Assembly: GCA_016617855.1 (NCBI GenBank) | Contig: JAECUM010031605.1 | Span: 1-64,000, forward strand | Origin: Megalonaias nervosa | Lineage: Eukaryota > Mollusca > Bivalvia > Unionida > Unionidae | Length of the DNA: 64,000 nt | Direction: 5' to 3' | Shown here: positions 6,918-52,245 of the stretch, piece after piece | Numbering within the stretch: position 1 is the stretch's first letter | Layout of the letters: every line of letters starts with the position of its first letter | Position numbers and translations under genes: made by a program | The notes under the pieces: generated by a model | Told to the model about the DNA's origin: nothing | What the model saw: only the letters and a program-made list of their open reading frames with translations | Database searches by the model: none

Positions 6918-7423
6918 TTAAGAAGTTGGCGCGTTCTGAAATGTGACTCGCTGTTAGAATTTCTTTGAAAATGCTGATTTAATTATATTATCTGCGACAC
7001 GTTTTACTGAAGGGGGGGGGGAATATCAAAATATTTAGCAGCTGCATTTATTGAGGAAAATATTATCTCCTTGCCTGTCTCTACATTTACAGACACAACT
7101 GATCTTGGAGATTTATCATTATAACCGACTTTTCCGAATTTGCAATTCTATCCTTGTGTAACAACTCGCAAGTTAAATAAAGAATTATGTTTTCGATGTC
7201 GATTAATATGATCGATTACAGGCCCGCCTTCGATGACTCCGTAAGAACATTCGAATACAAATCTATGTGATAAAGAATTTTTTCCCTCAGCTCTAAACAT
7301 GAGATACCCAGTATTAATGACAAAACCAACTGGTTTTTGTAGTCGACAGTTTCTGATGATACCATCACGAAATGCTTCATAATTCTTGATGATGGGATGT
7401 TTCACAAATTCATTTTGCTCCAT
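6918..7423 (-). pseudogene. HNH endonuclease with NUMOD-type tail, copy A
   Basis: N terminus MEQNEFVKHPIIKNY, then IIRNCRLQKPVG (NUMOD4-like opening), an HNH core with VIDHINRHRKHNSLFNLR and, after a stop near 7148 and a frame change, a NUMOD1-like helix SSINAAAKYFDI. HNH/NUMOD proteins of this layout are known as homing-type nucleases in viruses and phages. A C-run near 7015 shifts the frame again and a further stop follows, so it is inactive. Same gene in copy B at 46797-47280. Confidence 0.75.
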
Positions 7424-7794: not shown

Positions 7795-10700
7795 ATGGAT
7801 GAATTCACGAGATTATCTGCAATTAAGCTTTCCAGAGCTAGATTTGATCTTGACAAACTGCCAAAACTTAAATTTAGTTTTTCGATGCAAGATTTGGAGC
7901 TGATGAACAAGGATATAACTGATCGTATCAACGAAGCCAAGAAGGAATTTCACGACGACGGTGCAGCTCATACGTGGTCAACATTCAGAATCATGATCAG
8001 CGATATTTTATTCAGATACAATTTATTGTGCAGACAGACGACGAAGTTTGGATTATCCGTGACAAACGTGACCCTATCGGCGTGACCGTTGGAAGTAGCA
8101 TCATCACATTGAATAAAAATTACAAACCAGGTACGTTAACCGGCATTGATAAACCATATTACGAACGAGAGTATCCTGTGACTGCAGTTATTTATGCGCT
8201 GTATCCGTTAAATGATAGACCTGAAGTTGATGATCTTGCGCCGATGAAACTATCAAGGATAAATTGGGTAGCTGAGTGAGTTACGGAACATTTTGCAGCA
8301 GCGATACGTGGAAACGGTTTAACGGATTTGCGGCGTGAAAAAATAAACACATGGGCAGAAAAAGTTAAAGATACCGGAGCGTCTATCAGCGACGTTGCCG
8401 AGTTAGGAAAAAAAATTAAGATTTCCGATTACGGTGAAGACATTAACCGGAGAGATTTTATACGCGCCGAAATACAAAAAAAAAAAAAAAGAATATGGAA
8501 CTCAGATAACAATCATTGATCATAACGCGCATGCATGGACGTCAGCGGTGATGATATTTCCACGAAAGAGAACAATTAAATATTACAATGGCGTTATATT
8601 TGATTCAATGAAAAATATTAGTAAGAGTGACCCTGTATCCGTGTGGTTATTTCGAAGTGTCGATGATGGAAATTACGATCAGTTTGTAAGGCCTAGCGGA
8701 GAAATTTATCGTGCAGAATCACTCCACGAAGAAATGAAAAATCTTGCTCTAAAATACACGAACGATGATAATTTTATCGACGAATTAATGAACAACAGTT
8801 TAACCGTTCCATCAGTTGCTGCTTACTTTGCTGAGGAGAAAAATTCATGGAAACCTACAAGATCGGAATTTCTCTTTGATGCACAGCTAAGCTGCGTCGA
8901 ATACGGACACGGCGGATTATGGAATACCGAGTACGATTATAGCGACGTTATCTCAGTTGATATGGTAGCGTGTTATCCTGGACGTTTTCTTGGATATGGA
9001 CAGTGTCTGAATACTTTAAAAGATTTGGTCATACAACACACGAGATGACAAGAGTTGCGATAAATGGACCTCTGCCAGAGTTTGATCTGACTGGATTCGC
9101 CTGCGTGGATTCATTTGAATTTGCACACGAGATCTTCATCCGATTGTTTATGTGTGGTTTGGAAGACATTTCTCAGAAAAACATTGGGCTCCAATAGTAC
9201 TATTACGATATATGATTGATGTAAAAATATTAATATCGTTACGTGTAAGTGAAGCGATAATATAATATCGTTCGCAGAAACAAGTTTGGTTGCCACAACC
9301 AGACGAGTTTGATGCAGTCGAAGATATCAAGGAAAAATTTCCTAATCTCGACGGCGACGAAGTTGTTAAACTCATTAATAATGTATCTAAATACAAAAAA
9401 AAGAAAATGATGAGAAAGTTGCAAAAGATCTCGGCAGAAAAATAATCGGTAAGTTTACTCAGGGTGGCGCGGTTGGTCATAAACGAACGTGTACTAGCTT
9501 GATCATGGACGATGCAGAACTCGATTTTATAATTGCTGATACAACGGAGAGAAATATGTTTATAAACCGAAATGATGTTTATCTGTCTGACGGAACTAAA
9601 TTAGGTACAATTGTGAGTTATATTGATGGTGAGTCATCGCAGTTTACTCATTTAAGATCTTCGATGCTCGAGTACGTTTCAATAAACTTATTATCGATGA
9701 TAAACAAATTTGTTGACACCGCGGTTAGAGTCGCCACGGATTCATTTTATTTAAATAAAAAATATTTAGATCAGCTACATGGATTACTTGGCACTGGTGA
9801 ATGGGGATCATGGAGAATAAAACGTGAAAACATATTTAGTTATTCTGAATCTGCCGACGTTGAAATTGCGGAGAAATATTACAAGAATAACAATCAAATA
9901 CCAGCACCGACAGCACCATCTGTGTATGATCCTGTAGCCAGGCATAAAACCGTGTATGTAAATGGGTGGGGAGGTTCTGGTAAAACAACACGTGTGATTG
10001 AATTATTTCGGAATTTTGATATGATTGTTTTAACACCCACACACAGACTCGATAGATAAATGAACGAACGAGGAGTAAAATCACAGACGTATCATTAGTT
10101 TCTTTAGATGTGTGGATACGCGTGGACTCCATCGCGGATGGGTGAAAAATACATTCCCAAGATTATTATCTGGGATGAAGTTTGTACGGCATCGTTGGAT
10201 ACATTAAAAATGTTTCTTACGTTGCTGTGAACAAAAAATTGCGATGTAATAATGTGTGGCGATCATGGTCAACCACCACCTTTTGTCGGACAATCTCCAC
10301 ACGAATGGTTAAAAAGGTTTGTAGATTATTACGAAGAAATAACTGATGATCATAAAGCTATTGATGAACCGCTGAAAAAATTTAAAAAGCTAATCAGACT
10401 GCAGCCAGATAGAATACAGTGCGAAATAATGCGTGGAGTAATTCCAGAGACTACGATGAATGAATTTTGGAATTTGTGGAGACCTGCTGATTTGATAGTT
10501 GCAAGTAGAAAGATAGTAAGAGATACACTTCAAGAGAAATTATTATCTGAACATAAAGAAAAGTTTTCAAATCTACCTGTACCACTGTGTTATCGACCAG
10601 CAGATACTCGACTGCAGAATATTGAAGTTGAAATTCCGGGTGGTGGTAAACAAAATCTTGTACTAAATGATATTGTCGCAGTTCCTGTCAGTGCTGTCAC

Positions 10701-11205
10701 TGGCGCGTTGAACATGAGTAAAACTCCATGGACGTTAGAATACGCTATAACGATTCATTCATCACAAGGATTAACTATCTCGGATATAAATATTTGGATT
10801 ATTGATGATCGGATCGAGTGGTCAAATTTAGTTTATCTCGCAGTGTCTCGAGTCAGAAGAATATCTCAACTGCACAGGGTTATTATGGATTGCGTTATAA
10901 CCGAAGAATTTACTGATGATGTATGCGATGAAGTTATCAAGAAAAAATTATCTGGGTATCGACAATCTGACAAAAAAAATAACCGCGATTTTGATCTCGA
11001 CGTTGAATTTATAATGACACTGAAACAACAACAGAATAATCAATGTACAAGTTGTAACTGTAATATATTGTGGCAGTATTAGAATAATAATCCAAGACAG
11101 TTTACCGTGAATAAAATTAATAGTAGTCTTGGTCACACACCCGAAAATGTGATGCTGACCTGTCTTGAATGTAATCGACGTAGGGGTGCCAGTTTACAGA
11201 AGTGA
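7795..11205 (+). pseudogene. Replication fusion protein: PolB - SF1 helicase - HNH, copy A
   Basis: A gene of about 1130 codons when intact. Order of visible parts: N-terminal region without assignable domain (7795-8500); IIDHNAHAWT (about 8508); HGGLWN then SVDMVACYPGRF (about 8958), a PolB motif A; KFTQGG (about 9452), possible motif B; RVATDSFYL (9727-9753), PolB motif C; Walker A GWGGSGKTT (9964-9990); Walker B IIWDEVC (about 10165); GDHGQPPP (10258-10281); TIHSSQGLT (about 10750) and YLAVSRV, typical of SF1 Pif1/RecD-type helicases; a C-terminal HNH with CTSC...TCLECNRRRGA (to 11190). At least eight frameshifts or stops are seen. I recall similar large proteins in arbuscular mycorrhizal fungal genomes. 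The 3' end overlaps the integrase 3' end by 12 bases. Confidence 0.75.
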
Positions 11206-19535: not shown

Positions 19536-19765
19536 AGTAGTAAGCTAATAGGCAGATGCTAAACCAAAAGCGGATTCTAGACCAGAGACACCCACCCCTT
19601 CAAAATAAATATATTCTGATATTTTTTTTCACCACCTCAGAGACCCCCTCTCCTAATAAAAACCCACCCTCATCCAAATTTCAGTATGCTAGGAGACGGA
19701 TCTTAAACAAAAAGCGGATTCTGGACCAGAGCTCCAACTCCCCATTCTGGACCAGAGCTCCAACT
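19536..19765. repeat. Dispersed repeat R, uninterrupted copy
   Basis: Positions 19536-19680 match the reverse complement of 52095-52240 nearly base for base, up to the point where Polinton B begins. It continues past that point here (CAGTATGCTAGG...). It also has internal copies of GCGGATTCT-GACCAGAG. It therefore shows what the site occupied by Polinton B looked like before insertion. Confidence 0.8.
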
Positions 19766-37059: not shown

Positions 37060-37622
37060 TTTCAGAATCAGAAAATGTATTATTTACAATCGGGCAACTG
37101 GCAAGTATATAGTAATTTCTCGAATATATACATGTAACCGAATTTCATAGCTCAGTGCAGGAATGTTGGATTCTCGTACTGAAGGTCTGTGGTTCGATTC
37201 CCATCACTGGCATATGGTTATGGTTCTGGAATACCAAAAATTTTTTAAAAGATGGGGAAGGGGGCTCAGCCCCAAGGTGTCATATAATCTCTCATCACGT
37301 TGAACAACGTGGTGAGTGCGTTTTGCACTTACCCCGGGGTTTCATTTGGTAGGGGGTTATATGAAATCGCAATGCCTAGACAGTCCTCTGAATCTCTAAA
37401 GTTTCGTCTTGTTTAGTGATTCGCTGGGGGATGTGTCTATGCAAGGAGCCCTCTAAAATAACCAGTAGCATGTGTGAGCTCTCTACCTCATTTGAAGGGT
37501 ACCCCATAAAGAACATTCAGAAAGAATGTTGCCAAAAAGAAAACTTTGCGGGGTGCCAATAACGGTCATAAGAAAGACATCATCATGCAAAAGGACACCT
37601 CAGAGGAACCACAGGCAATGAA
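37060..37622 (+). mobile_element. tRNA-headed SINE-like repeat abutting Polinton B
   Basis: Box A-like TAGCTCAGTG and B-box GGTTCGATTCCC at 37147-37206 are followed by a GC-richer body with TGCCTAGACAGTCCTCTGAA and AACATTCAGAAAGAATGTTG. It aligns with the reverse complement of 45015-45620 and its end with 63866-64000. The homology starts upstream of the tRNA-like part, at about 37065. It ends exactly where the surviving part of the left terminal repeat of Polinton B starts. Confidence 0.7.
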
Positions 37623-37771
37623 GATTATTTCCATACGGTTGAGAACGGATAATAAATCGTTTGGGTTAGCTCAGTTTTGTTATCAATCGCTGACGTATTT
37701 TTTTCAAATTTTTATGCGATTTCATTTACGCGTTGGTCACTCAGTATTGGTCATTCACCCTCTCTGCTGCT
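37623..37771. repeat. Left terminal inverted repeat of Polinton B (outer part missing)
   Basis: 149 bp that are the reverse complement of 51832-51980 with a single mismatch noticed. The outer about 114 bp present at the right end are absent here and replaced by the SINE-like repeat. The inner end is CACCCTCTCTGCTGCT. Confidence 0.9.
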
Positions 37772-37806
37772 ATGAATTAAACAGCCAGTATAGATATTAT
37801 TAATAA

Positions 37807-38910
37807 ATGAGTATTGGAGAACCACATTCAGCTAGATTAGCTCGAGAGTGACTAGAGGCAATTAGAAAATATTTACCTGTTCGTGATTTAGTTAAACAAC
37901 AGTTACAATCTCGTCAAGAGTCTCAGGTGGAATTTGAAGAGGATACAAAACAATTATTTAAACCTATCACTGAGACTACTAAAGGCATTCTACCTGTGTT
38001 AGAGAAAACCGCTGAAGCAACTGGAAAAATAGCGGAAAGAACAAAACAGACAAAAAGAATTTTACGTGGACTTCCAGCCGAAATAGCTGCTGCGATGCCA
38101 GTCCCGGAAATACCTGAGGATGAAGATCAGCCTGGAGGTGCTGAAGCACCAGCCCCCGAACAAAAGAGTCATGCAATAATTAATGCTAAACTGTTAAATA
38201 AATTTCATGAAGATACTATCAAAGTAATTAAAAACGACATTAAAACCATACAACAATTGATTGATTTTGCTGTGGATAGTTTTAGTCGAAGAGATAAATT
38301 AATGAAACCTGAATACGCTAAAAATATTAAAAACCGTGAACAATGGCAAGATTCATTATATCGCATACGTATGGATGTTAAACAAGCTAGAGATGATGAT
38401 CCTTTATATCGGGAATATATTAGGGGAATTAATGATTTAATTCAATCAAGAAAAGAGGAGAAAAAACAAAGTAAAAAACAAAAGAAACAAAAACCTCCAA
38501 AACAACCAGAAAAAAAATCAAAACCATTTGAGCAATCACTTTGTGATTATCCAGTATCACCAAAATCAAAAACATCACCGAAACCAAAAACACCATCAAA
38601 ACCAAGTAAAACAACACCACCGAAACCAAGTGAAGAGGAAGAAGAAGAATATTTTCCGTCAGACATCTCTCCTGGCGACATAAGTGGAAGTGGTCTAGGA
38701 AGTGGTCTTATTACTTGTCCTAATAACGTCCTTGCTGATGTTGATCGATTAGAAATCCTCATTGGAGGAAAACGAGCTGGTAATAATTCCCCAGAAATCG
38801 TCAATGAAGCAACTGATATTTGTAAACGATTATTTACAGGTGGAATTATGGATATTAATGTATATCGGTCTCTCATTAATGAAATCGCCGATGACTACTA
38901 TAGTGACTAA
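37807..38910 (+). pseudogene. AGN-motif virion protein, copy B
   Basis: 367 codons with one TGA at 37849 (CGA in copy C). N terminus MSIGEPHSARLARE, then helical KTAEATGKIAERTK, Pro-rich and Lys-rich linker (KPKTPSKPSKTTPPKPSE), an acidic stretch and C-terminal GGKRAGNNSPEIVNEA block. Copy C has the same ends but a Gln/Pro/Thr-rich middle. The equivalent in Polinton D is 24125-25693. Likely a virion component near the capsid genes; the exact role is unknown. A short palindrome covers the stop. Confidence 0.65.
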
Positions 38911-38954
38911 GTCACTGGATTGAGTATGTAATTAAATACAGTTATTATAATAAA

Positions 38955-39428
38955 ATGATCGTACATAGTACTCAACGTGGACCAACCATGGTCAGGGCGG
39001 TAAATTCTCGATTACCAGTATACAAAACAATCTACGGAGATGGACTAGGTGATGTTGTTCAGGGTCTATTTAGAAGGATAGCCCCAAAAGCAATACCGAT
39101 TGCAAAGCAACTATCAATGAAAGCTATTGATGTTGTTCGTGAAAAAGGTATTGGTGCTGTTGGCAATATTGCTAATAAAGCATTCTCAGCAATCAAAGAT
39201 AGACTAACACTATTAATACACAGACCTGCGGTCCGACCTCAACCTGTAAAATTACCTAGCACTGAAGTAATGCCTGCAAATATTAGTAAAATAATAAATC
39301 AAGCTGCTAATCAAAAACTAGCAGAGTTGGCTGATGTACCATTATCAGAAAAAGAAAAAAATATAACCGCTAGTCTGATAGCAGGAAGTGGTCTCACTTC
39401 TCGAAGTGGTCTTCGTGTTAGACGATAG
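38955..39428 (+). CDS. pX-like small structural protein, copy B
   Basis: Intact 157-residue frame: MIVHSTQRGPTMVRAVNSRL, YGDGLGDVVQGLFRRIAP, then an amphipathic Ala/Ile-rich helix and a C-terminal TASLIAGSGL...RSGLRVRR. It is basic. It precedes MCP in copies B and C and has the size and composition of adenovirus-like core/minor proteins. Function inferred only. TATA-like ATTATAATAAA lies immediately before the ATG. Confidence 0.6.
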   Translation: MIVHSTQRGPTMVRAVNSRLPVYKTIYGDGLGDVVQGLFRRIAPKAIPIAKQLSMKAIDVVREKGIGAVGNIANKAFSAIKDRLTLLIHRPAVRPQPVKLPSTEVMPANISKIINQAANQKLAELADVPLSEKEKNITASLIAGSGLTSRSGLRVRR

Positions 39429-39442
39429 CAAATATAATAAAG

Positions 39443-40795
39443 ATGTTTAAACGCATATCTGATCCAGCGTTCGACATGGATGCACCAGTACTCAAGGATG
39501 AGTCTGTGCGTGATTATCAATATTATTCTTATGACGCTCGAGTTCCAGATCAGCGTGGAAGGATTGAACTACAGGTTCAGGATACAAGCAGATATTTCCT
39601 ACCCGCTGAGGCGTTTATCGAAGTAGAAGGTGAAATTTTAAATAACGCTGCTCCTGCAGCACCAGTAGAATATGGAGCTGAAGTTAGGGTTGGTTTTGTT
39701 AATAATGGTATTGTGGCGTTATTTGATAGCGCTACGTACATGATTGACGGAAAAAATATTGAATCAATCCAGAAAGACGTTGATGTTGCTACAACAATAC
39801 TTGGTCTTGCGAGATACAGCGACGATTATTCAAGATCGGCTGGACCATCAATGATGTTTGCGAAGGATACTTCTGACCATCCTGATAATAGAAATGTAAC
39901 ATTAAATGCAGCTGGAACCGAAGTCGCATCGATGAATGCAGATTTTAACTTAGGATTTGCAGCACGTCGATCAATGTTGAAAGGTAACAGAAAAGAGTTT
40001 TCATGTGCAATTCCACTGTCACATATTTTTGGATTCTGTAGAAATGTCAGAAAAGTCATTTTCGGAGCCAAACATACGGTTGTACTTGTACGAAAAGCAA
40101 CCGACAACGATACATTATGGAGACCCATTGGTGATCCTGGTAAAGTAGTACTAACAAAACTTTCATTGTGGATGCCAGTGATGACTCCGTCAATATCTGA
40201 AGAAGACCGGTTGCTATCTTTTATGAGTCAAGGCGGTAAATCAACGTTGTCATGGTTGACAGTGACCACAGATGCTATCCAGAGTAATATTAATGGTTTA
40301 TTTACATGGCAAATAGCTTCTCAGCAGGGTGTTTCTGCACCAAGACACATATTTATTGCATTACAGGATGCTACACGAGTAAATCAAACGCGTAGTCACA
40401 TGATATTTGATAAACTCGGTGTTTCTGAAGTTTCTTTAAGGATAAACGGACATCAAGAACCTTCTGAAGAAATATTGCTAAATTTTGAAAATAATCATGT
40501 AGCACGGGCTTATCATCGATTAATGACATTTATGGGACGTGATCAGAATATCGATTCTGGTTTACAAATATCACAGTTAGATTTTACAACCTTATATCCG
40601 ATTTATTACTTTTCGCTTGAACATTTAGATTTAACCAGACAATCAGTAGTTGATATACATTTTCGAGCTCGTGTTAATAGAGATGTTGGATTTATTGCTA
40701 AGGCAATCGCAGTCATACTCAGCGATAAGACGATGTTACTTGAAGGTGTTGGTGGACGAATGAGAGTCGTTGATGCTCCAGTAGAAAATATGTAA
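39443..40795 (+). CDS. Major capsid protein, copy B
   Basis: Intact 450-residue frame, starting MFKRISDPAFDMDAPVLKDE and ending VDAPVENM. Conserved with copies A, C and D: FVNNGIVALFDSATY, ARYSDDYSRSAGPSMMF, IPLSHIFGFCRNVRKV, SLWMPVMTPSI and LGVSEVSLRINGHQEP. Length fits double jelly-roll capsid proteins of Polintons (assignment by homology class and neighbours). The start is supported by the identical start in copy C and a TATA-like AAATATAATAAAG directly upstream. It follows the pX-like gene by 14 bases and is followed by a hairpin. Confidence 0.88.
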   Translation: MFKRISDPAFDMDAPVLKDESVRDYQYYSYDARVPDQRGRIELQVQDTSRYFLPAEAFIEVEGEILNNAAPAAPVEYGAEVRVGFVNNGIVALFDSATYMIDGKNIESIQKDVDVATTILGLARYSDDYSRSAGPSMMFAKDTSDHPDNRNVTLNAAGTEVASMNADFNLGFAARRSMLKGNRKEFSCAIPLSHIFGFCRNVRKVIFGAKHTVVLVRKATDNDTLWRPIGDPGKVVLTKLSLWMPVMTPSISEEDRLLSFMSQGGKSTLSWLTVTTDAIQSNINGLFTWQIASQQGVSAPRHIFIALQDATRVNQTRSHMIFDKLGVSEVSLRINGHQEPSEEILLNFENNHVARAYHRLMTFMGRDQNIDSGLQISQLDFTTLYPIYYFSLEHLDLTRQSVVDIHFRARVNRDVGFIAKAIAVILSDKTMLLEGVGGRMRVVDAPVENM

Positions 40796-40810
40796 CACAT
40801 AATTAGATCA

Positions 40811-40827
40811 CCTGATTTAAAATCAGG
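40811..40827 (+). terminator. Palindromic hairpin after MCP, copy B
   Basis: CCTGATTTAAAATCAGG, a perfect 8-bp stem with a 1-base centre, 15 bases after the MCP stop and 12 before the next ATG. Counterparts in copies A and C. Confidence 0.5.
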
Positions 40828-40839
40828 ATAATAATTATA

Positions 40840-41296
40840 ATGTCATACAATCACGTTAGTGTTACCCTGACTCCTGGCCAGATTAAAAGGCTACAATCAG
40901 CATAAAAAAATAACTGGAATAAAAATATCGCTAAAGCGAGAACAGATGAGCGGTTCAAATAAATTATCGTTGACCGAGCGTCAGTTCAGAAACTTCAATG
41001 AAGCTAAAAAATCAAATAAAGGCGTCAAACTTAATCTTTCTGCGGGTGCCATCAAAGACATCGCTAAGACGGGTGGTATATTTCCACTTCTCGCAGCTAT
41101 ACCAGCATTAATAGCAGCTGCAGCCCCAGCTGTTGCAAAAGCATCTGCATTAGGCGCTGTTGGAAATGCTGCTGAAATGGCATTAAAGAAAGCAACAGGA
41201 AAGGGAATCAAAAAAAAGGGAAAAGGTCTCAGATTGCCAGGGACTCCACATTCATGGTACGGAAAAGGCCTAAGACTTCCCGGGACAGTTCACTGA
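40840..41296 (+). pseudogene. pVI-like capsid-associated protein, copy B
   Basis: MSYNHVSVTLTPGQIKRLQ is followed by a stop and frame change near 40900. The rest is open from about 40946: LSLTERQ, GGIFPLLAAIPALIAAAAP and a Lys-rich tail with two copies of GLRLPGT (about 41226 and 41268). One disabling region, otherwise well preserved. Stop is 9 bases before the protease ATG. Confidence 0.65.
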
Positions 41297-41304
41297 TATC
41301 ACCT

Positions 41305-41715
41305 ATGTCCAATTTTGATTTACTCAATGCTGCTAAAAAACTAAAAATAAAAAACTTTAGAGGTGTTTTCATGCGCGATCAATTACCTAAAATCGCTAGC
41401 GATTTAGAAACTGGTATTATCAATCTCGATCAAAATTCTGGATCAGGCACGCATTGGGTTGGATATGCAATTGATCCACGTAGAACTATTTACTTTGATT
41501 CATATGGATTAGCGCCACCAAAAGAATTTCTTCATTATGTCAGCAATAATACTGCTCCAATCTGGTATTCAACGTTACCAACACAAACATTAACTGATCC
41601 ACCAATATGTGGTCGTGAAGTACTTAATGTACTTGATGCTATATCAAAATCAACAAAACCACCTCATAAAGTCGTGCATGAATATACCACATTGTCACAT
41701 TTAAACAGATATTGA
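41305..41715 (+). CDS. Adenain-like maturation protease, copy B
   Basis: Intact 136-residue enzyme. His50 in GTHWV, Asp65 in YFDSYG, Gln94 in LPTQ, and Cys102 in PPICGRE give the expected catalytic order. ATG at 41305 matches MSNFDLL in all lineage-1 copies. The family cleaves small-residue sites in capsid precursors; the GLRLPGT repeats of the preceding gene are candidate sites (inference). The fibre gene starts 8 bases after the stop. Confidence 0.88.
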   Translation: MSNFDLLNAAKKLKIKNFRGVFMRDQLPKIASDLETGIINLDQNSGSGTHWVGYAIDPRRTIYFDSYGLAPPKEFLHYVSNNTAPIWYSTLPTQTLTDPPICGREVLNVLDAISKSTKPPHKVVHEYTTLSHLNRY

Positions 41716-41723
41716 TAAATATA

Positions 41724-42810
41724 ATGGTAGATATTTACGGAAGATCTGCTCGTGGTAAAGCTCAGCAGCAAGGTGATTTATCTAAATATGCAACTCTTGA
41801 TCAACTCAGAAATGAGATTGACTATTTATTAAATATTACAAGTGTGGATCAAAATGAAGTCGTTGTTTTTCAGGATAAACAAGGACGATTAAAGACAAGC
41901 AATATACAACTGCCAGATGTGCTTATACGAATTCCTACCGCAGTTGCTGATAATATCGTTACTTTTAATGATCAAGGTAAAATACAAGATTCGGGTAAAT
42001 CAGTTAACGATTATATCAAGAAAACTGGTGATGTATTTACTGGTGATATTATTGTGTCAGGAAAAAAAATTACATACCTTGGAAATCCAACCGTAGATAC
42101 AGATGCAGCAACAAAAAACATACGTCGACGATCAAGAATCTAAGTACGTGTTAGTCAACGGTGGTATAATGCGTGCATTTCTCAACATGAATAATAATGG
42201 TATTAATAATCTTAGAACACCAGAATCTGATTTTGACGCTGCAACGAAGAAATATGTAGACGATAGCAACATTCCTACGACAACTTCGCTAAAAACAATC
42301 AATGACGAAATGACCACACTCAATGGTACTTTTACTAGACATGTACAAACGTTTTTAAATTTTCGTAGAAACATAAGCAAATCTGTACATGAGTTTTTTG
42401 GTGATCCACCAATCGTTGACATAAAACTAGCCGACGTTAACACAAAACTTAACGATATTATCAATGGAATACCTAATATTGTTCAAAAAACTAATCTGAT
42501 TAAAATTCCTCACAATCAGATCGTCAATATCGTGTACACAGTAGCATCAGGATCAGCCACGTGGACACCACAAAATAAAACCATCAAATACACTGCGGAG
42601 ATTGCTGGTGTGTATAGGTTGTCCGTACTTAGCAGTGTAGATTTTAGAATATTTACTACATCTCCATCAACTGGTAATTCTTCTCGAACTGTATCTGTAA
42701 TATTGGATAAAGATTCTGAGGAAATATTTACGTTGGAATTATCTGATAAACATACAGCTGCTGTTAGTTACTGGTGGTGTCTGGAATTTGTAACCAAACT
42801 CACCAATTAA
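41724..42810 (+). pseudogene. Fibre-like repeat protein, copy B
   Basis: About 362 codons with one frame change near 42110 at an A-run. MVDIYGRSARGKAQQ start, a coiled N-terminal part, two shaft repeats (TGDVFTGDIIVSGKKITYL...DTDAATKKYVD and GGIMRAFLNMNNNGINNL...DFDAATKKYVD), then a 170-residue C-terminal domain ending YWWCLEFVTKLTN. The shaft repeats resemble phage tail-fibre repeats and those in Polinton D. Receptor-binding role inferred. Confidence 0.7.
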
Positions 42811-42830
42811 TTACTTAACGTCATAGTATA

Positions 42831-43337
42831 ATGAATGAAACTTCAATCGACGTTCAACGTCACAGATATAATCAAGTATGTGAATGCCTGACCAAACTAA
42901 AAAATATCATCGACAATTATACAGTAAAAGTAAAAAAATATCGCAGACGTATGGTTGTCATTGATATAATCGTTTACTCGGTTTCCGCTGTTGTTGCTGG
43001 ATCCGGATTATTATTATCAACGATAACAATGACAGCTCCAGCAATTGTAACGATTATTGTTTCAACTTCAACGACTATCGCAGGTATTCTCAGTATTATC
43101 GCTAAAAAGATATCTACGTGCACAAATGATAAATTACGTGAATATATAATAAAATTACACACAGCAACAGCAGCCTATTCTAAACTAACTTCATGTGTTT
43201 CATTTTATCTTAGTGATGGTAAAATATCAGACGAGGAATTTGCAACAACAATGAAAACCTATGATGAAGCATTCATAATCGCTACTGACGATAGTCAAAA
43301 TGGAGAATTAAATAATAACAATAATAATAATGTCTGA
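42831..43337 (+). CDS. Two-helix membrane protein, copy B
   Basis: Intact 168-residue frame. N-terminal helical part with QVCECLTKLKNIID, KYRRR, then two hydrophobic segments at about residues 42-63 and 68-91 joined by a short turn, KKISTCTNDKLREY, and a C-terminal helical part ending in poly-Asn. It overlaps the next gene by 8 bases. No named family; a virion or host-membrane protein is likely. Confidence 0.7.
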   Translation: MNETSIDVQRHRYNQVCECLTKLKNIIDNYTVKVKKYRRRMVVIDIIVYSVSAVVAGSGLLLSTITMTAPAIVTIIVSTSTTIAGILSIIAKKISTCTNDKLREYIIKLHTATAAYSKLTSCVSFYLSDGKISDEEFATTMKTYDEAFIIATDDSQNGELNNNNNNNV

Positions 43338-44808
43338 GTCCTTGACAACGTCAAGAGAGTTATTACAGCAGATCGTCACTAATACAACACCGTCAAAAAC
43401 TACAATGATTTCATTAAGTTCGACCAATCCTGAGTTTAGCGTTAACTTTCCAACCGCAATTCCTGCAAAAGAAATAGCGTTAGCGCAGCTTAGAGTTTAT
43501 TATAGCTGGCCTAATATTAGATCAAAACCATTTGGGGGTTACAACCAAATAATTCACTAGTATTCGCAAATAAGAATAAACCTGATGGAACTCCTGATTG
43601 GCAAGTAGTTAGTATTCCAACTGGTAGTTATCAGATAGAACAGATCAACGATGAATTCCAGCGCAGAATTAAATCTATTACAGGAAAAGAATCAAAAATA
43701 ACAATTGGTGTATACGAAACAACATTATCAGCGGTGATTGAAATAAATTCCCCTGATTACTCTGTAGATATTTATCAAAGTTCGATTAGATCAGTATTAG
43801 GATGGCCTGAAGTTCCCCCTGTTTATAATGGAATTTCAGAACCAACTAAAAATGAATTTCTCACAACGGAAAAAAAAATTCATTAAAGATCCAGAATATC
43901 GAAATAAAAATCCATGGCTTTATATAAATTTTGAATCTGATCCAATCAACGATAGATATTACTTTACTGATTTCGACGGTCGAAGGACCCCTAAGACAAC
44001 TAGATCAGCATTCACGGTTATCAGGACGCCAGGGGCGCGGGATCGAGATATTGTTGATGAAATAATTTTTAAAAGATTTTTAAATCGTCTTAAACCCGAA
44101 TACGATAAAACACTTAATGATTTAAGAAATTTATTTATTTCATTATCTCAACATTATGACGATGATGTAAAAAATCAGATAATCGTGTCAATAAAACATT
44201 TAAATAGGATCCTATTTGATTTATACATCGCCAATCGAAGTATTATAAACGTTGCGACTAAACTCGATGAAAATCTTTAGACAAGTCCAGAACATAAGAA
44301 ATTATTCCTTGATCATTACAAAATAACAGAAGAAGATTTACAAACATTTATAATACCAGATTTAAATAACGCTGAAATGAAGAAAACACTCAACGATGTC
44401 ATTGATGAATATTTCCCTAAAATATATGCAGCGTGGAGAAAAATAGCACCACCACCGGTTATTCTTAAACATAACAACGATCCATACGGTGGAGGCCGTC
44501 ATACATCGCCAGGCATTGTTAATATAACATCGACAATTGCAGTCAATCTAGTATGTGACGCAATTGATAGTAGCTATCAAGTAGATCTTTCAAAGTCTAA
44601 CCAGGCCCAGCAAGGATATGTACTACATACATTCACCCCTATGGTACCACCCGGATGGCTCATTGTGTCTGAGCCAATAAATCAGGTCTACTTGCGTATA
44701 CATAATCCATTATTGTCAAGAATGAATTTCAAACTCACAAATCAAGATGGCAACATTGTGGACCTAAGAGGAGAAACGTTATATATTAATTTGTACATAC
44801 GCTCGTAG
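43330..44808 (+). pseudogene. Penton-like minor capsid protein, copy B
   Basis: About 492 codons. N-terminal NPEFSVNFPTAIPAKEIALA and RVYYSWPNIRSK, a middle helical region (about 44040-44240), NDPYGGGRHTSPGIVNIT (about 44480) and C-terminal GDLRGE-type end with LYIRS. Frame changes at a G-run near 43540 and an A-run near 43870, and a TAG at 44278. The last 176 codons are open. The C-terminal third corresponds to the whole Polinton D penton (25735-26482), so lineage 1 carries a large N-terminal addition. Confidence 0.68.
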
Positions 44809-44852
44809 AATGATGCCTGAGTAAATTTTGCAAAAAAATCTGTTTTTTTACC

Positions 44853-44937
44853 TTGACCTTGACCTTGACCTTGACATTTGACCTTGACTTTTGACCTTTT
44901 GCATGTGTGTATGTATGTATGTATGTATGTATGTATG

Positions 44938-44968
<31 letters not shown>

Positions 44969-45005
44969 TGTATGTATGTATGTAATATGTGTATGTATGT
45001 AATGT
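44853..45005. repeat. TTGACC hexamers and (TATG)n microsatellite
   Basis: Five to six TTGACC/TTGACY units are followed by about 100 bases of TATG repeats with small interruptions, directly after the penton gene. Confidence 0.85.
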
Positions 45006-45014
45006 AATTTATCA

Positions 45015-45620
45015 AAAATAATCAGTAGCATCCTAAGTGGTTACCCGTCACGGGGCCCCTTGATAGCCTTTGTGCCTTTCATGGGGCCCTTACATTGTTG
45101 TCTCTATTATGACTGTTATGGGGCACCCCATGTTCTGTTTCTTTTGGCTAACATTCTTTCTGAATGTTTATTTGGGGGCCCTTCAATGGGGTAGAGAGCT
45201 CAGGCATGCTACTGATTATTTTAGGAGGCACCTTGCATAGACACACCCCCCGGCGAATTTCTAATCGAAACGAAACATTAGAAATTCAGAGGACTGTCTA
45301 GGCATTGCGGTTTCAATAAAAACCCCACCAAATCGCCCCACGGGGTCAGGTGCAAAAGCACCTCACCACGTGGCGTGACGTGGTGAGGATTTTATTGAAA
45401 CCTCAGGGGTGGTCCCCCCAATCTTAATAAAATTGGCAACCCTTGGACCAAATACCCAACCCCTCGGTCATGGGAGTCGAACAGCAGAAGTTCAGTACCA
45501 GAGTCCCAACACTCGTGCACTGAGCTAACGACACTCGACTACATATATACGTTTGAGAAATTATTATATGGTTATCACACAATAGCATTAGATTTTCTGA
45601 TTTTACAAATGAATCTAAAT
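45015..45620 (-). mobile_element. tRNA-headed SINE-like repeat inside Polinton B
   Basis: On the minus strand: TTAGCTCAGTG and GTTCGACTCCC (degenerate boxes A and B), then CACGTGGTGAGG, TGCCTAGACAGTCCTCTGAA and the AACATTCAGAAAGAATGTTA terminal segment. It matches 37060-37622. It is inserted between the penton gene and the small ORF, and contains a foldback (ATAATCAGTAGCAT near 45017 and inverted near 45210). Confidence 0.7.
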
Positions 45621-46310
45621 ATTTATAATTTTATTAAGATATATAACCATTTATATGTATGAAACGATTAAAATATATCACCGTTTGTATATATAAAACG
45701 AAATAATTTAAAATTACAAACATGAAGACGAAAATAACTGCTGCGCCACAAATCCATGGAAAATCGATAAGCCCATCCGTCTTAATGCACAAGTTGTTCT
45801 GTTTGAAAGCCTAGAACGAAAATGTATATGTATAATGGTGCACAGTATGATTGAAGATTATATACCGATCACTCGCACTGTACAGTTAAGTGCTTAAAGG
45901 GTTATTTGTACTGTACTGTGTGTCTTAATTACTTAAAGGATTATTTGTGCTCTGTGCGTGCGTTTGAATTGGGTTTCATGTCCGTGTAAGTGTTTTTGCT
46001 TTACTGATGTATGTCGTTTTGTTATGCTTGTAAATGACGTTGCTTTTTTAGCGGCGACTGTTATCTAAGGGAACCTTGTTATTGTATTACGATATGTGTC
46101 GTAAGTTTACAGTGGAATTTAACAAACTTACAGAGATTCAGTTAATCACAGACAGACGGATACATTTAGTTGATGAAAATACATTGGGCAAGGGAAATAA
46201 TCGTTTAATTTACTCTGTGGAGTTACCTCGCTTTATATGTGCAATTGCCTAAAGTGAAAATTAAAAACTTGAATGTCAATTATTTTTTATTTTAAAGAAA
46301 TAAATATATA
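45621..46310. other. Gap without recognised gene
   Basis: About 700 bp, with two phrases of CTTAAAGG-TTATTTGT-CT around 45895-45960. No ORF recognised; it is probably in the segment inverted relative to copies A and C. Confidence 0.45.
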
Positions 46311-46313
46311 TAT

Positions 46314-46762
46314 ATGAACAATGAAAACATTAATGATATTATTTCTGCTATTAAAAAATTAAAACATGACGGAATAAAAATGTCCGATAATCTTGATCCT
46401 CAAAAAATTCTCTCTGACTTTGAATTATTGCAGCAAAGAAAATTCGAGAACAAATTCACATTACCTTCCAATTACAGATTCGTGAAATCAATTTATCAAT
46501 CTATGTTAGAATCTTTAGCAATGGTGAACGACACACAAGTGAAGCTATTTGCACCTCTTGCACGCTCAATCGAAAAAATAAGGACTGCGTTGTCTCACGA
46601 GTACGAAAGAAAAAAATGATAGACAATCGTGTAATGCAATTGAGAAAGATTATGTTATCTGATTCTGTCGAGAGTGAAAATGAGAACAGTGACAGTGAAG
46701 GTGGACCCCTGACTCTGTCAGGGACTGTAATTATGGCTAAACAAAAGCCTTGGCAAAATTGA
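46314..46762 (+). pseudogene. Small ORF of unknown function, copy B (inverted relative to A and C)
   Basis: MNNENINDIISAIKKLKHDG, LPSNYRFVKSIYQSMLESLA, LSHEYERKK, then after a frame change at an A-run, an acidic Ser/Glu-rich tail. Homologs at 5298-5762 and 63128-63559 are on the minus strand, so this segment is inverted in copy B. A CCCTGACTCTGTCAGGG hairpin overlaps its 3' part (46707-46723). Confidence 0.6.
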
Positions 46763-46796
46763 CAGAGTCGAACTATCTGTTTTTGTTAAGAAATAG

Positions 46797-47280
46797 TTAT
46801 ATGACATATTCAAATATTATCCGCTGATTATATTTTATTGAAAATGCAGATTTGCATGTTTTATTTGCGACAAATTGTACCGATTGTGGATGTATATCAA
46901 AATATCTGGCAGCTGCGTTTATTGATGGGAAGGTCATTTCTTGGTCTGTTTCTGTATTTATGGATTTAATAGCTCTCTTTACGAATACTTTACACCTTCC
47001 GGTACTTCCACGTCTAGAATTGCAGATTAGATAACCGATTATTCTGGGGATCCCCATCAATATGATCAACTACAAGTCCATTTTCAACTACTCCACGAAA
47101 ACATTCGAATATGAATTTATGTGATAAATAATGTTTATTTCCATTAGTATTAAATCTAAAATAACCAAGTTTACCAACATTACCGACTGGTTTTTTCAAT
47201 CTGCAGTTCCTGATAGTACCATCACGAGACGCGTCGTAGTTTTTGATGATCGGATGCGCTACAAATTCGTTTTGCTCCAT
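46797..47280 (-). pseudogene. HNH endonuclease with NUMOD-type tail, copy B
   Basis: MEQNEFVAHPIIKNYDASRD, TIRNCRLKKPVG, HNH core VVDHIDGDPQNNRLSNLQF, a frame change near 47030, then SINAAARYFDIHPQSVQFVA (NUMOD1-like). About 160 codons, one frame disruption. Possible homing nuclease or replication accessory. Confidence 0.75.
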
Positions 47281-47293
47281 TTATATAATAATA

Positions 47294-47606
47294 TTATTTG
47301 TCTAAATCATTATTCTGAAATCTGGTCAGATAATCCTCTACGGTTTTTATAGGAGATTTACCTGACAAGGTATTTTTTTGGTCATAATATCGTTTTAATT
47401 CCCTGTATTTTTTTACCGCCACATTTTAGACATAACTGTGTTTTTCCTCTGACTCCAACACCGCATTGCACACATGGTTTTGGTCCTGTACTTCCATGTT
47501 TGATACTTTGCATATGGTAGCTACAGAATTCGTTTACGCATGCTCTGTTACAAGGAGAAGTATGTCCGATTTTAAGCCAGTGGCAGTAATTCTTTGTTTC
47601 AATCAT
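47294..47606 (-). pseudogene. Cys-rich zinc-ribbon protein, copy B
   Basis: MIETKNYCHWLKIGHTSPCN, CVNEFCSYH, CVQCG and CLKCGGKK, then a frame change at an A7 run; the continuation SPIKTVEDYLTRFQNNDLDK reaches the stop at 47294. Same position as 7491-7742 in copy A. Possible DNA- or RNA-binding ribbon. Confidence 0.6.
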
Positions 47607-47650
47607 TATATATATATACTAAAATTTTAATTTAAATATTTGTTTTAATT

Positions 47651-49637
47651 ATGTGGAGGAATTATCCGTTATTGAACCTTCCCCTGCCAGATTTGATCTT
47701 GACAGACTACCAGAATATAAATTTAGTGTTTCGATGCAAGATCTAGCTTTAACAAATGCGGATATAGCTAAACGTATCCGTGAAGCCAAAAGGGAATTTC
47801 GTAATGATGGCGCTGCTAATGTATGGTCAACTTTCAGGATAGGACATATCGTTAATATGATGAACGACAAACGAGGAAGGGTTGTTATTAACCAGCTTGA
47901 TAATCAAAAATATTTTATTTGAATAAAATTTATTGTAGAGACAGATGACGATATCTGGATTATTCGTGATAAGCGTGATCCAGTCCGTGTGCAGTCGGGA
48001 AGCAATATTGTTCTCTTAAATAACAGATCCAAACCTGGAATACTTACTGGCATTGATAAACCTTACTATGTACAAGGTTATCCAGCGACTGCAGTTGTCT
48101 ACGCAATATATTCGCTAAATGATAAACCTAATGTTGCGGATCTCAAGCCGATGAAAATATCAAGAATAAACTGTGTAGCTGAACGAGTTACAGAACATTT
48201 TACAAATGCGATACGTGGTAATGGCTTAACAGATTTAAGACGTAAAAAAATAAACACATGGGCAGAGGCGGTTAAAGATACCGGAGCGTCTATCAAAGAT
48301 GTCGCTGAGCTAGAAAAGAAATTAAAATTCCCAATAACAGTAAAAACGTTAACAGGAGAGATTTTATATAAATCGAAATATGAATCAAGAGGAGCTCCAA
48401 TAACAATAATTGATCATAACGCGCATGCATGGACTATGGCAGTAACTATATTTCCACGAGATAGAGCGGTTAAATTTTATGATGGTGATATATTTGATTT
48501 TATCAGAAATATTAGTAAAAGTGACCCTGTATCTGTTTGGTTGTTTCAAAGTTCAGAATACGAACATTACGATCAATTTGTACGGCCTAACGGTGATATT
48601 TATCGTACAGAATCTCTTCATGAAGAAATAGAACATCTTGCACTGAAATATACCTCTGATGATGTCATAGTTGGACAATTACTGAATAACTGTTTTACCG
48701 TACTATCGGTTGCTGCCCATTTCGCTCAGGAGAAAAATTCATGGAAAACGACATGATCAGAATTCCTTGAAGATATCAAAAAAAGTTGTATAGAATATGG
48801 ACACGGTGGATTATGGAATACCAAATACGATTATAATGATGTTATCTCAGTTGATATGGCTGCAGGTTATCCTGGGAGTTTTCTTGAATATGGAGAATGT
48901 TCTAAATACTTTAAGAAACTCGGACATCCTACACGTGACAAAAGAAATTATTTACGTTACATAAAGAAAAGTTTCCAACGTTACCTGTACCTTTGTGTTA
49001 TCGCCCAGCAGATACTCGACGACAGAATATTGAAGTTGAAATACCAGGTGGAGACGCTGAAAATGTCCGAGTACAAAATCTTGTACTGAATGACATTGTT
49101 TTGGTTGCCATTGATGTTGTTGAGAGCGCATTAAACATGGAAAAATCAGCGTGGATGTTAGGATACGCTATAACGATTCATTCGTCACGGGGATTAGCTA
49201 TCTCTGATACAAATATCTGGATTGTAGATGAACGTATCGAATGGTCAAACTTAGTCTATCTTGCAGTATCTCGTGTTAGAAGAATAACTCAACTACATAG
49301 GGTTATTATAGATTACGTGATAACTGAGGAAATTACTAATGACGCTGCTGTAATAAAGAAAAAATTAGCGGGTTATAAACAATGTGACCAAAAAAATAAG
49401 CGTGACTTTGATATTGATACTGAATTTATTATAACACTAAAGCAACTACAGAATAATCATTGTGCAAGCTGTAACACAATAATGTTATGGCAATATTCAA
49501 ATAACAATCCAAGACAATTTACCGTAGACAGAATTAATAGTGATCTTGGTCATACACGTGAAAATGTGATGCTGACCTGTCTTGAATGTAATCGACGTCG
49601 GGGCGCTGGAAGCCCTGGTGCTAATTTACATAAGTGA
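47651..49637 (+). pseudogene. Replication fusion protein, copy B (internally deleted)
   Basis: Same N-terminal part as copy A (PARFDLDRLPEYKFSVSMQD), IIDHNAHAWTMAV, HGGLWNTKYDYND, SVDMAAGYPGSF, then a direct jump near 48945 to sequence equivalent to copy A position 10530. About 1.48 kb is missing, including PolB motif C, the helicase Walker A and Walker B. Remaining are SSRGLAI, YLAVSRV and the complete HNH end (CASC...DRINSDLGHTRENVMLTC, LECNRRRGA). Also frameshifted at the start, near 47920 and at a stop near 48757. Confidence 0.75.
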
Positions 49638-50609
49638 ACGTGGTGGTAATTGTGTATCTACAGGAATTACTTGTAATTGTTCACGTACAAATCCACGCTG
49701 AGGGGCTGTAGAATCTAGTCTGTATATGGCAGGTCTTCCAGTGGATCTAGCCACGCTAGAAATTGTATGTGTTGTCACGCTCCAGATAGGGTCAGTAGCT
49801 CTTTTTTTCCCACCCTCAAGCTCCCCTGGTTCGTATAAATATCTCACAGTTACATTACCAAATACTGGTTGTTCACGGCGTTGTACGTTATCGCTACGGG
49901 GTACATATCTTTTTGTTATTGCATTAGAAGGTTTCATGGAAGTTGCACGAGTAATTTCATTATTTAGCGCAGCTATCACACTTGGTAATCTTGCAACCCA
50001 TTCACGAGATCGTTCACCCGACTTAAAGTCAGTAGATATTTCCTTTGCGTATTGATATCCGAATAACCGCTCAGCAAGTGTTCGATTAAATCGTTCAACA
50101 ATTGCTTGATCACGATGAATTTCGGTATGTCCTCGTCTGATTTTAACGTTATGTCGCTTCATCAAAGATATTACTGCACCAAGAAATTCTTTGCCAGGAT
50201 CAACTTGTAATAACTGTGGCCATCGTAGACCACCACGTTGATAAATTCGTTCAAACGCAGATGCAGCTTCAGATGCTGTCTTTGTTGATAATGGTTCCGC
50301 TTCTTTATATCTACTTGCAACGTCAACAACAGTCAATGCGTATTTGTACGTGCGTGATTTTCGTCCACGTCTTTTAACAGTATCATGTGGTAAAAACAAA
50401 ATATCTGCTTGATGAACTTCATTGGGGATGCTGACATCAAAATGTGCGTAATGAATTTTTTTAGGTGGTGGTAGATAGATTTGCCATATTGCCTGTCGTG
50501 CTAACCATGATGCAGCAACATTACGTGAAACTTTTGCTGCTTCAGCAAGTTTACTGATTGCTGCTTTACCTCTCCAATATCCTCTCGGGGAATAATAAAT
50601 GGATTCCAT
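49626..50609 (-). CDS. Retroviral-type integrase without chromodomain, copy B
   Basis: Intact 327-residue protein. N terminus YYSPRGYWRGKAAISKLAEA (helical, DNA-binding-like), DDE core with Asp69 (EVHQADILFL), Asp137 (LLQVDPGKEF) and Glu172 (AIVERFNRTL), spacing between the last two about 35 as expected. C-terminal beta-rich tail (NVTVRYLYEPGEL) and GRPAIYRLDS. No zinc HHCC motif and no chromodomain seen. It would act on the terminal inverted repeats. Tandem with the PLA2 gene (16-base gap); its 3' end overlaps the Rep gene. Confidence 0.9.
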   Translation of the reverse strand: MESIYYSPRGYWRGKAAISKLAEAAKVSRNVAASWLARQAIWQIYLPPPKKIHYAHFDVSIPNEVHQADILFLPHDTVKRRGRKSRTYKYALTVVDVASRYKEAEPLSTKTASEAASAFERIYQRGGLRWPQLLQVDPGKEFLGAVISLMKRHNVKIRRGHTEIHRDQAIVERFNRTLAERLFGYQYAKEISTDFKSGERSREWVARLPSVIAALNNEITRATSMKPSNAITKRYVPRSDNVQRREQPVFGNVTVRYLYEPGELEGGKKRATDPIWSVTTHTISSVARSTGRPAIYRLDSTAPQRGFVREQLQVIPVDTQLPPRSLM

Positions 50610-50625
50610 TATAATAGTTATATAA

Positions 50626-51135
50626 TTAATTACCAGCCCCGAGCATTATTTTACTTTTCATAGCAGATTTTACTAGAAAACTAGCGAGTTTTTCTCTGAG
50701 AGATTTATTAGATATAGCATTTAGCGCATGAATCAATTTTACATCTGCGAGATGCCGCTGCTGCAAATCTTTACTTTTATAAGCAACATCATGAACATGA
50801 CATGCTTGATCAATTTTATTTACTGGATACTCTCCGGGTCTTGGTTGATCTTGATCATCAAGTCGGATATCAAGTCGAGTTCCAGGACCACAGTAATTAT
50901 ATCCCGGAAGGTGTTTCTCACCGGGGTATTTGGCCCACGGAACTCCTGGCAATTTCCCTAATGATGCGGCTATATCACCACCACGCGCTATTTGCGACGC
51001 GGAAATAAATTTATATTTTTGTGTGCCACATTTTACACATTTACCCGTAATTGCACGTCTTTTATTTTTTGTTGTTATTGTCGTTAATCCAGTGGTATCG
51101 GTAGGTGCTCTGCATCGAACACAATATAAACTCAT
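50626..51135 (-). CDS. Zinc-ribbon / parvovirus-type phospholipase A2, copy B
   Basis: Intact 169-residue protein. Cys5, Cys8, Cys33 and Cys36 form a zinc ribbon. PLA2-like part: PGYNYCGPGTRLD (residues 77-89, calcium loop), His115-Asp116 in CHVHDVAY and a later Asp131 in HLADVKLI. This matches the compact PLA2 of parvovirus capsids, which breaches endosomes; the same role is inferred here. In Polinton D the ribbon and PLA2 are separate ORFs. Start lies 12 bases from the ATPase start on the other strand. Confidence 0.82.
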   Translation of the reverse strand: MSLYCVRCRAPTDTTGLTTITTKNKRRAITGKCVKCGTQKYKFISASQIARGGDIAASLGKLPGVPWAKYPGEKHLPGYNYCGPGTRLDIRLDDQDQPRPGEYPVNKIDQACHVHDVAYKSKDLQQRHLADVKLIHALNAISNKSLREKLASFLVKSAMKSKIMLGAGN

Positions 51136-51147
51136 ATTATTTATTAT

Positions 51148-51819
51148 ATGGATATAATTGATTTCTCAGCGACACGAAAACAAGAACCAGTAAAGCACCA
51201 TCCAGCGCTTCCAAATTCTATCAGAATGATTATAATAGGTCCATCTGGATCTGGTAAAACACAATTATTGCTTAATCTAATAATGCGATGGCTCAAGTGG
51301 GATAGGTTATATTTGGTAGCACCATCTGTAGATGATCAGCGGTGTTATGGGGTACTTAAAGATTTTAATGAAAATGCAAAAATATTGGACGAAGATGGAA
51401 ACGATGTTATTGATTTTATTACCGATATCGATGAGGCACCATCTGTAGATGATCTAGATGGACTTATTAATAATTTAGTAGTGTACGATGATGTTATGCT
51501 GGATAAACAATCCAATCCAGCTAGAATATTTTCTCGAGGTAGACATAAAAATACTGACGTGATTTATGTTACACAACGATATACGCAAATACCTAAGGTA
51601 ATCAGAGATAACTGTAATATTTTGGTTGTGTTTAATGGAGTAGATAATTATACTCTGCAGAATATTTATTATACTTGGTGTTCAGGGGACATGGACATGA
51701 TTAAATTTAAAAATTTCTTTTCAAAAGCACAATCTGTTCCGTTCGGATTTATAACGATAAATTTACATGATCCAAGATCTAGATATCGTGTAGGTCTGGA
51801 TAAAATCTTTGGTCCTTGA
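51148..51819 (+). CDS. Genome packaging ATPase, copy B
   Basis: Intact 223 residues. Walker A GPSGSGKT (31-38), Walker B LVVYDD (111-116), sensor-like GRHKNTDVIYVTQRY. FtsK/HerA-type motor for DNA packaging, as in other Polintons. The last gene of the element; its TGA stop is within a hairpin, and the terminal inverted repeat begins 12 bases later. It shares a 12-bp A/T-only spacer with the divergent PLA2 gene, so promoter elements must overlap coding sequence. Confidence 0.9.
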   Translation: MDIIDFSATRKQEPVKHHPALPNSIRMIIIGPSGSGKTQLLLNLIMRWLKWDRLYLVAPSVDDQRCYGVLKDFNENAKILDEDGNDVIDFITDIDEAPSVDDLDGLINNLVVYDDVMLDKQSNPARIFSRGRHKNTDVIYVTQRYTQIPKVIRDNCNILVVFNGVDNYTLQNIYYTWCSGDMDMIKFKNFFSKAQSVPFGFITINLHDPRSRYRVGLDKIFGP

Positions 51820-51830
51820 TTTTATCAAGG
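51814..51830 (+). terminator. Hairpin at the ATPase stop, copy B
   Basis: CCTTGAT-TTT-ATCAAGG (7-bp stem, 3-base loop) includes the TGA stop. Comparable to 25678-25700. Missing in copy A. Confidence 0.5.
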
Positions 51831-51831
51831 T

Positions 51832-52094
51832 AGCAGCAGAGAGGGTGAATGACCAATACTGAGTGACCAACGCGTAAATGAAATCGCATAAAAATTTGAA
51901 AAAAATACGTCAGCGATTGATAACAAAACTGAGCTAACCCAAACGACTTATTATCCGTTCTCAACCGTATGGAAATAATCTCGGTTAGAGGCTTTGGTTT
52001 AGCGTCATTGACCTTTTTTTTAGCCTTCGTAGGAACCTTTATTTTTGTAAAATAAGGTCTCAGGCAAAGTGGTCTGTTCACCCTCTCTGCTGCT
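51832..52094. repeat. Right terminal inverted repeat of Polinton B, complete
   Basis: 263 bp. Inner end AGCAGCAGAGAGGGTGAA, outer end TTCACCCTCTCTGCTGCT: the unit has its own inverted ends. First 149 bp pair with 37623-37771. The outer end finishes in CT followed by AATTTG, and flanking repeat R continues from there. Confidence 0.9.
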
Positions 52095-52245
52095 AATTTG
52101 GATGAGGGTGGTTTTTTTTGGAGGAGAGGGGGTCTCTGAGGTGGTGAAAAAAAATGTCAGAATATATTTATTTTGAAGGGGTGGGTGTCTCTGTTCTAGA
52201 TTCCGCTTTTGGTTTAGGATCTGCCTATTAGCTTACTACTACTTG
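52095..52245. repeat. Dispersed repeat R, copy interrupted by Polinton B
   Basis: Reverse-complement match to 19536-19680, beginning directly at the Polinton boundary. This fixes the boundary to within a few bases. Confidence 0.85.

Follow-up and report, generated by a model that had tools for sequence, protein, structure and literature searches.

The window analysed here, the first 64,000 nucleotides of contig JAECUM010031605.1 of the bivalve Megalonaias nervosa, contains three related copies (A, B and C) of one Polinton lineage, and in copy A a gene at 7795..11205 (+) joins a polymerase-like palm, a superfamily 1 (SF1) helicase and an HNH endonuclease domain. This gene is most likely a Tlr1-like helicase and the probable replication protein of the lineage, standing in for a separate protein-primed family B DNA polymerase (pPolB). 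The fusion is real and the element's own, but probably of a known kind rather than a new replication system. An earlier note on this DNA had proposed a different, new kind of replication gene; that part of the proposal is not supported, since single chains in which a PolB palm with its first motif C Asp lost precedes an SF1 helicase and ends in HNH or GIY-YIG have already been published (PMC11071308).

Evidence that the domains form one chain comes from copies elsewhere in the same genome. The 283-aa helicase piece of copy A gives at least 137 scored matches in the 2.19-Gb genome (of 21,703 first-look candidates), a count that is a lower bound. Fourteen of these sit in frames of at least 1,000 residues with no stop inside the match, and 12 of the 14, on 12 contigs (loci L026–L037), form our set of open copies; upstream flanks were examined for eight of them (L038–L045). 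In every open copy a single frame of 1,117–1,242 residues without stops takes in the N-terminal, palm and helicase pieces of the window. It begins with the N-terminal domain and a Cys/His domain, continues with the palm (motifs A, B and C) and a Pif1-like SF1 helicase, and closes with the endonuclease-VII/HNH domain. The fusion is not a product of chance, because copies A and B align over kilobases (at 72% and 80% identity), the genome holds 137 matches and all 12 open copies keep a single frame.

The two window copies are less complete. The gene in copy A, delimited from its pieces, homologue searches and the open copies, comprises the N-terminal domain, a domain resembling the viral OTU protease (vOTU), the palm, the SF1 helicase and an HNH domain cut by a stop. 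The claim that PolB motifs, helicase and HNH share one chain holds for the open copies, whereas copy A itself is broken. Three open pieces remain on the + strand, all in the same phase, with stops and frame changes between them: 8407..9045 (the end of the vOTU-like domain with its His motif, and palm motif A, DMVACYP), 9391..10056 (palm motifs B, GKFTQG, and C, RVATDSFYL, then Walker A) and 10231..11079 (helicase motifs III, V and VI, running into the first part of HNH). Copy B (47623..49637, +) retains the N-terminal and vOTU-like part, motif A, helicase motifs V–VI and the whole HNH domain (48939–49634), but its middle is gone: it lacks about 1.5 kb, the counterpart of A 9040–10530, the alignment jumping from 9039 to 10531 in A and from 48934 to 48939 in B. 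The statement that both copies share the fusion is therefore right for these retained parts and not for motif C or Walker A, which copy B lacks. Pfam searches of the broken window pieces found no match for the palm and only sub-threshold matches for the helicase and HNH domains. The full-length protein matches AAA_19/AAA_30 at approximately residues 730–880. The helicase family profile clearly matches PIF1-type structures in the PDB (best E 5.4e-7), and the 283-aa piece of copy A does so weakly (best E 0.0016).

Three sets of palm motifs can be followed through the open copies. The aspartate of motif A is kept in 12 of 12, the glycine of motif B in 11 and the A-x-D of motif C in all, where the motif reads ATD instead of DTD. 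In profile comparisons with phage pPolBs, which lend support to a putative protein-primed type of palm, the palm beats all 300 column shuffles when match columns and the larger set of sequences are used, but at low HH probability; an earlier match-column shuffle with fewer sequences placed 2 of 500 at or above the real score. When gappy columns were included, 25 of 300 shuffles reached the real score, with outliers to 140.6, and the gappy columns spoil that control. The 12 full-length copies alone gave no match to the phage pPolB profile (score 16.8), hhalign of the palm alignment against the single pPolB of the window's second Polinton lineage (see below) found nothing and PDB sequence searches with the palm returned no polymerase. 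Foldseek retrieved nothing from the PDB at E ≤0.001 for either of two structure models, the palm model being too poor to resolve TPR1/TPR2 subdomains, and no polymerase palm appears among the VIA matches listed for that model.

The vOTU-like Cys/His domain upstream of the palm was overlooked in the earlier domain list. Approximately 160 residues lie N-terminal to it, at what would be the position of a terminal protein. A gap of 143 residues separates the vOTU-like His from the motif A Asp; measured against the usual size of an exonuclease domain, this spacing leaves little room for one, in keeping with the reported lack of an exonuclease motif. At the other end of the chain, the HNH domain matches an endonuclease VII family (phrog_1035, E 2e-10) and is conserved in all 12 open copies, every one of which has Arg where HNH domains usually have the His of a DH pair. 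That histidine has a known role in HNH nucleases.

Selection appears to act on every part of the protein. Across the 66 pairs of open copies (mean dS 0.38), the median ratio of nonsynonymous to synonymous substitution rates (dN/dS) is 0.23 for the N-terminal part (range 0.15–0.74), 0.15 for the vOTU-like domain (0.04–0.49), 0.17 for the palm (0.10–0.40), 0.17 for the helicase (0.09–0.27), 0.20 for the linker and HNH domain (0.06–2.17) and 0.18 for the whole protein (0.15–0.33). Choosing copies by their open frames biases these values low, but such a bias alone would not account for equal constraint on palm and helicase.

The architecture corresponds closely to that of the Tlr1-like helicases which, in the portions of PMC11071308 used here, are described from polinton-like viruses (PLVs), Tetrahymena Tlr1 and transpovirons. 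Those proteins carry N-terminal domains including one at the terminal-protein position, a vOTU domain with its Cys and His, a pPolB palm, an SF1 helicase and a C-terminal GIY-YIG or HNH domain; the palm lacks the first Asp of motif C yet is predicted to be active, and the published reading is of a protein-primed-type polymerase with a domain at the terminal-protein position (PMC11071308). The mussel gene is alike in a palm that keeps motifs A and B and has lost the first Asp of motif C, in a helicase lying C-terminal to that palm in one chain (12/12 frames) and in its HNH end; its N-terminal part and putative vOTU domain with Cys and His may correspond as well. It differs in occurring in animal genomes, in many copies and beside a phospholipase A2 (PLA2) gene. 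Tlr1 itself, as far as the partial accounts consulted describe it, shares an rve integrase and the lack of a separate pPolB but has GIY-YIG where we find HNH (PMC12721341). The likeness to Tlr1, TvV-S1 and transpovirons is one of described architecture, not of direct sequence comparison.

Two other systems invite comparison, again from parts of their published descriptions. The OmPLV helicase SF1-pPolB of Oxyrrhis marina also unites an SF1 helicase and a pPolB in one chain, with most copies fragmented, but that protein has its helicase at the N-terminus and retains the exonuclease, and its element integrates by means of a tyrosine recombinase (Y-rec) (PMC12721341). Cryptophyte PLV helicases likewise have an HNH or GIY-YIG homing endonuclease domain fused to them, and in Rhodomonas cluster C1 the helicase gene is immediately upstream of the rve integrase; their HNH domain, in contrast, is N-terminal to the helicase and their hosts are algae (PMC12220804). 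Further related literature, likewise consulted in part, includes PMC4642659, PMC11071296, PMC10120064, PMC10328495 and PMC7805220.

Like canonical Polintons/Mavericks, of which the second lineage at 22–36 kb of the window is an example, the elements that carry the fusion gene have a double jelly-roll (DJR) capsid protein, an A32-type ATPase, an rve integrase and terminal inverted repeats; unlike them, they have the fusion gene in place of a stand-alone pPolB with exonuclease. At all 12 open loci, matches to the rve integrase and PLA2 gene (both on the opposite strand) and to the ATPase (same strand) lie 3′ of the open frame, and all eight upstream flanks match the DJR capsid protein and protease of the lineage, the capsid in a single piece in five. 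The integrase is often broken (a single-piece match in 2/12 loci) and the elements are thus not intact throughout. Inverted matches join both ends in all eight elements examined, running to the sequence end in C46635 and C2491. A 5-bp target duplication is present in three of the eight, directly beside ends starting AGCAGC in C5533 and C30675 and after a one-base shift in C9181; three others have none and two gave no readable test. The view that the fusion gene belongs to the lineage itself is borne out by its place inside these repeat-bounded elements. The earlier note had suggested seeking intact orthologs beside capsid and integrase genes in other genomes; unbroken copies with such neighbors are found here within the same genome. 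At two of the loci, fragments of another copy of the lineage immediately adjoin the first (L027 7821–9598 and L036 1–597), an arrangement expected of tandem or nested insertions.

Is a separate polymerase present elsewhere in these elements? A canonical pPolB has no match at E ≤1 in the 20 loci searched (12 loci plus eight flanks), the sole query being the pPolB of the second lineage. The same kind of search with the ATPase and capsid pieces of that lineage does recover their relatives in the fusion-gene lineage at ~26–35% identity, which shows that relatives this distant can be detected. In the three elements with target duplications, each open reading frame (ORF) of at least 130 aa either corresponds to a copy B gene, overlaps such a gene on the other strand or is no longer than 229 aa. 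With no unmatched ORF above 229 aa, there is little room for a second polymerase, in agreement with the earlier claim that the fusion lineage has no stand-alone pPolB.

That claim must be limited to the fusion-gene lineage, because a canonical pPolB is likely encoded by the second lineage of the window. Between copies A and B lies part of this lineage, with its own ATPase and a DJR capsid piece (23399–24022 and 27573–28160) and a 779-aa ORF (33857–36196) that, on its motifs and its alignment with phage pPolBs, is likely a canonical pPolB. It contains VIYADFE, DCVNLYG and FTDTDS, which we take to be an ExoI-like motif, motif A and motif C, and its alignment with phage pPolBs covers the motif B–C region (score 29.2, HH probability 3.8%); Pfam and PHROGs find solely an endonuclease VII domain within it. 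This pPolB is separate from the fusion-gene lineage.

How might such a protein replicate its element? By analogy with the published family, protein-primed copying with a helicase in cis seems likelier than priming from a nick. The N-terminal domain would serve as terminal protein, the vOTU-like domain as a protease processing the chain, and the palm, despite the lost first Asp of motif C, would start DNA copying at the terminal inverted repeats from a protein primer. The helicase may unwind in cis ahead of the palm, replacing the strand displacement of ordinary pPolBs, and the HNH domain could be a long-established endonuclease-VII-like part of the protein whose task is to process intermediates of replication or integration and not to make primers. 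In its fullest form, the proposal is that an animal Polinton lineage without pPolB lives on a one-chain replisome of priming domain, protease, working ATD-type polymerase, unwinding motor and endonuclease, all under selection and multi-copy in bivalves and at least one coral; we offer this tentatively, as somewhat short of an even prospect.

The alternative that survives best, although we consider it unlikely, is that the palm has become a relic without catalytic activity and the protein is a helicase or initiator, copying being left to a host polymerase or, in trans, to the pPolB of the second lineage. The ATD of motif C in all 12 open copies favors this view, as does the canonical pPolB ORF of the other lineage in the same window. 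So does the title of a 2016 paper by Krupovic, Yutin and Koonin (vew019), as cited in several papers, which reportedly calls the polymerase fused to the SF1 helicase inactivated. Against a relic, the palm is under the same constraint as the helicase and its motif A Asp is invariant among the open copies; active enzymes without the first motif C Asp, including those of mavirus and pipolins, are also listed in the part of PMC11071308 used here.

The model of the earlier note, in which the palm extends a 3′ end produced by an HNH nick in the element while the helicase opens the duplex in cis, strikes us as improbable. The HNH domain is no passing insertion, being constrained, conserved in all open copies and present in homologues from coral and other sources. 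However, the change of the DH-pair His to Arg leaves its predicted nuclease activity in doubt, other members of the family carry GIY-YIG instead (PMC11071308, in part) and a domain at the terminal-protein position is retained. That the fusion is a host gene, another transposon's insertion or an assembly artefact, as the broken window copies and dense repeats might suggest, can be discounted almost entirely, since the frame and neighbors recur at 12/12 loci on 12 contigs, inside repeat-bounded elements (inverted matches in all eight examined), and overlapping single public ORFs link vOTU to motif A (P0081, P0085 and P0087), motif A to Walker A (P0045) and Walker A to HNH (P0012).

If the one-chain replisome is correct, animals would have their own counterpart of Tlr1, and the 'inactivated' polymerase of the family would be a working enzyme. 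Tlr1-like helicases were previously described from ciliates, polinton-like viruses and transpovirons, at least in the parts of the literature consulted; what is added here is an animal family with many open copies and a measurable constraint on the disputed palm. The number of open copies permits tests of motifs, selection and boundaries that are impossible with one decayed copy, and the equal constraint on palm and helicase bears on whether loss of the first motif C Asp leaves the palm able to polymerise. A survey keyed to pPolB alone would overlook such a lineage. We found no report of the fusion gene in animals in the open-access literature and, subscription papers being outside this scope, claim no priority.

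Relatives are found in other animals. Three protein searches gave 31, 44 and 31 matches, with named sources in the freshwater mussels Sinanodonta woodiana and Potamilus streckersoni, the coral Desmophyllum pertusum and two Thiodiazotropha bins, the last probably host DNA in the bins. Alignment A1 has 14 rows, 12 homologues (of 31) and two window pieces; HNH is present in 11 of the 12 homologues and in copy B, P0014 ends before it and the copy A piece before or inside it. P0006 and P0007 likewise end before HNH. Scans of IMG/VR found no relative, and tblastn of P0106 and P0012 against phages gave no match. We also note that relatives are filed under prokaryote bins (Diapherotrites and Thiodiazotropha) as L001 (JAADDH010000070.1), P0051 and P0063; L001, a degenerate contig in a Diapherotrites bin and the sole genome-contig match, is probably animal DNA.

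Within the window, Polinton copy A extends from before position 1 to ~13.6 kb, copy B from ~37.6 to 52.1 kb and copy C from ~56.9 kb past the window end, with its fusion-gene part outside the window. Element B (37622..51981) is bounded by 151-nt inverted repeats (99%), its right end probably lying at ~52095 with the outer left repeat gone. It opens with two genes without Pfam match, followed by the DJR major capsid protein (39443..40795, +; PF21738, E 5.7e-19), a weak, below-cut-off adenain-like protease (41176..41715, +; PF00770, E 0.02) and more unassigned genes. A small HNH_3 gene found by Pfam on the minus strand (47014–47280, and 7148–7423 in copy A) then precedes the fusion gene, which is followed by the rve integrase (49626..50645, –; PF00665, E 1.7e-8), a PLA2-like and DUF5679 protein (50626..51165, –; PF08398, E 7.2e-13 and PF18930, E 4.4e-11) and the A32-type packaging ATPase (51148..51819, +; PF04665, E 2.9e-12). 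Both the PLA2-like gene, which adjoins the integrase, and the small HNH_3 gene are matched at all 12 open loci. The element's first gene (37852–38910) is far more variable than its neighbor (38955–39428), with best identities of 42–87% and 79–90%, respectively, in the eight flanks. Finally, the probable right end of copy B directly borders an inverted repeat of a different family (52095–52240 and 19536–19680, 94.5%).
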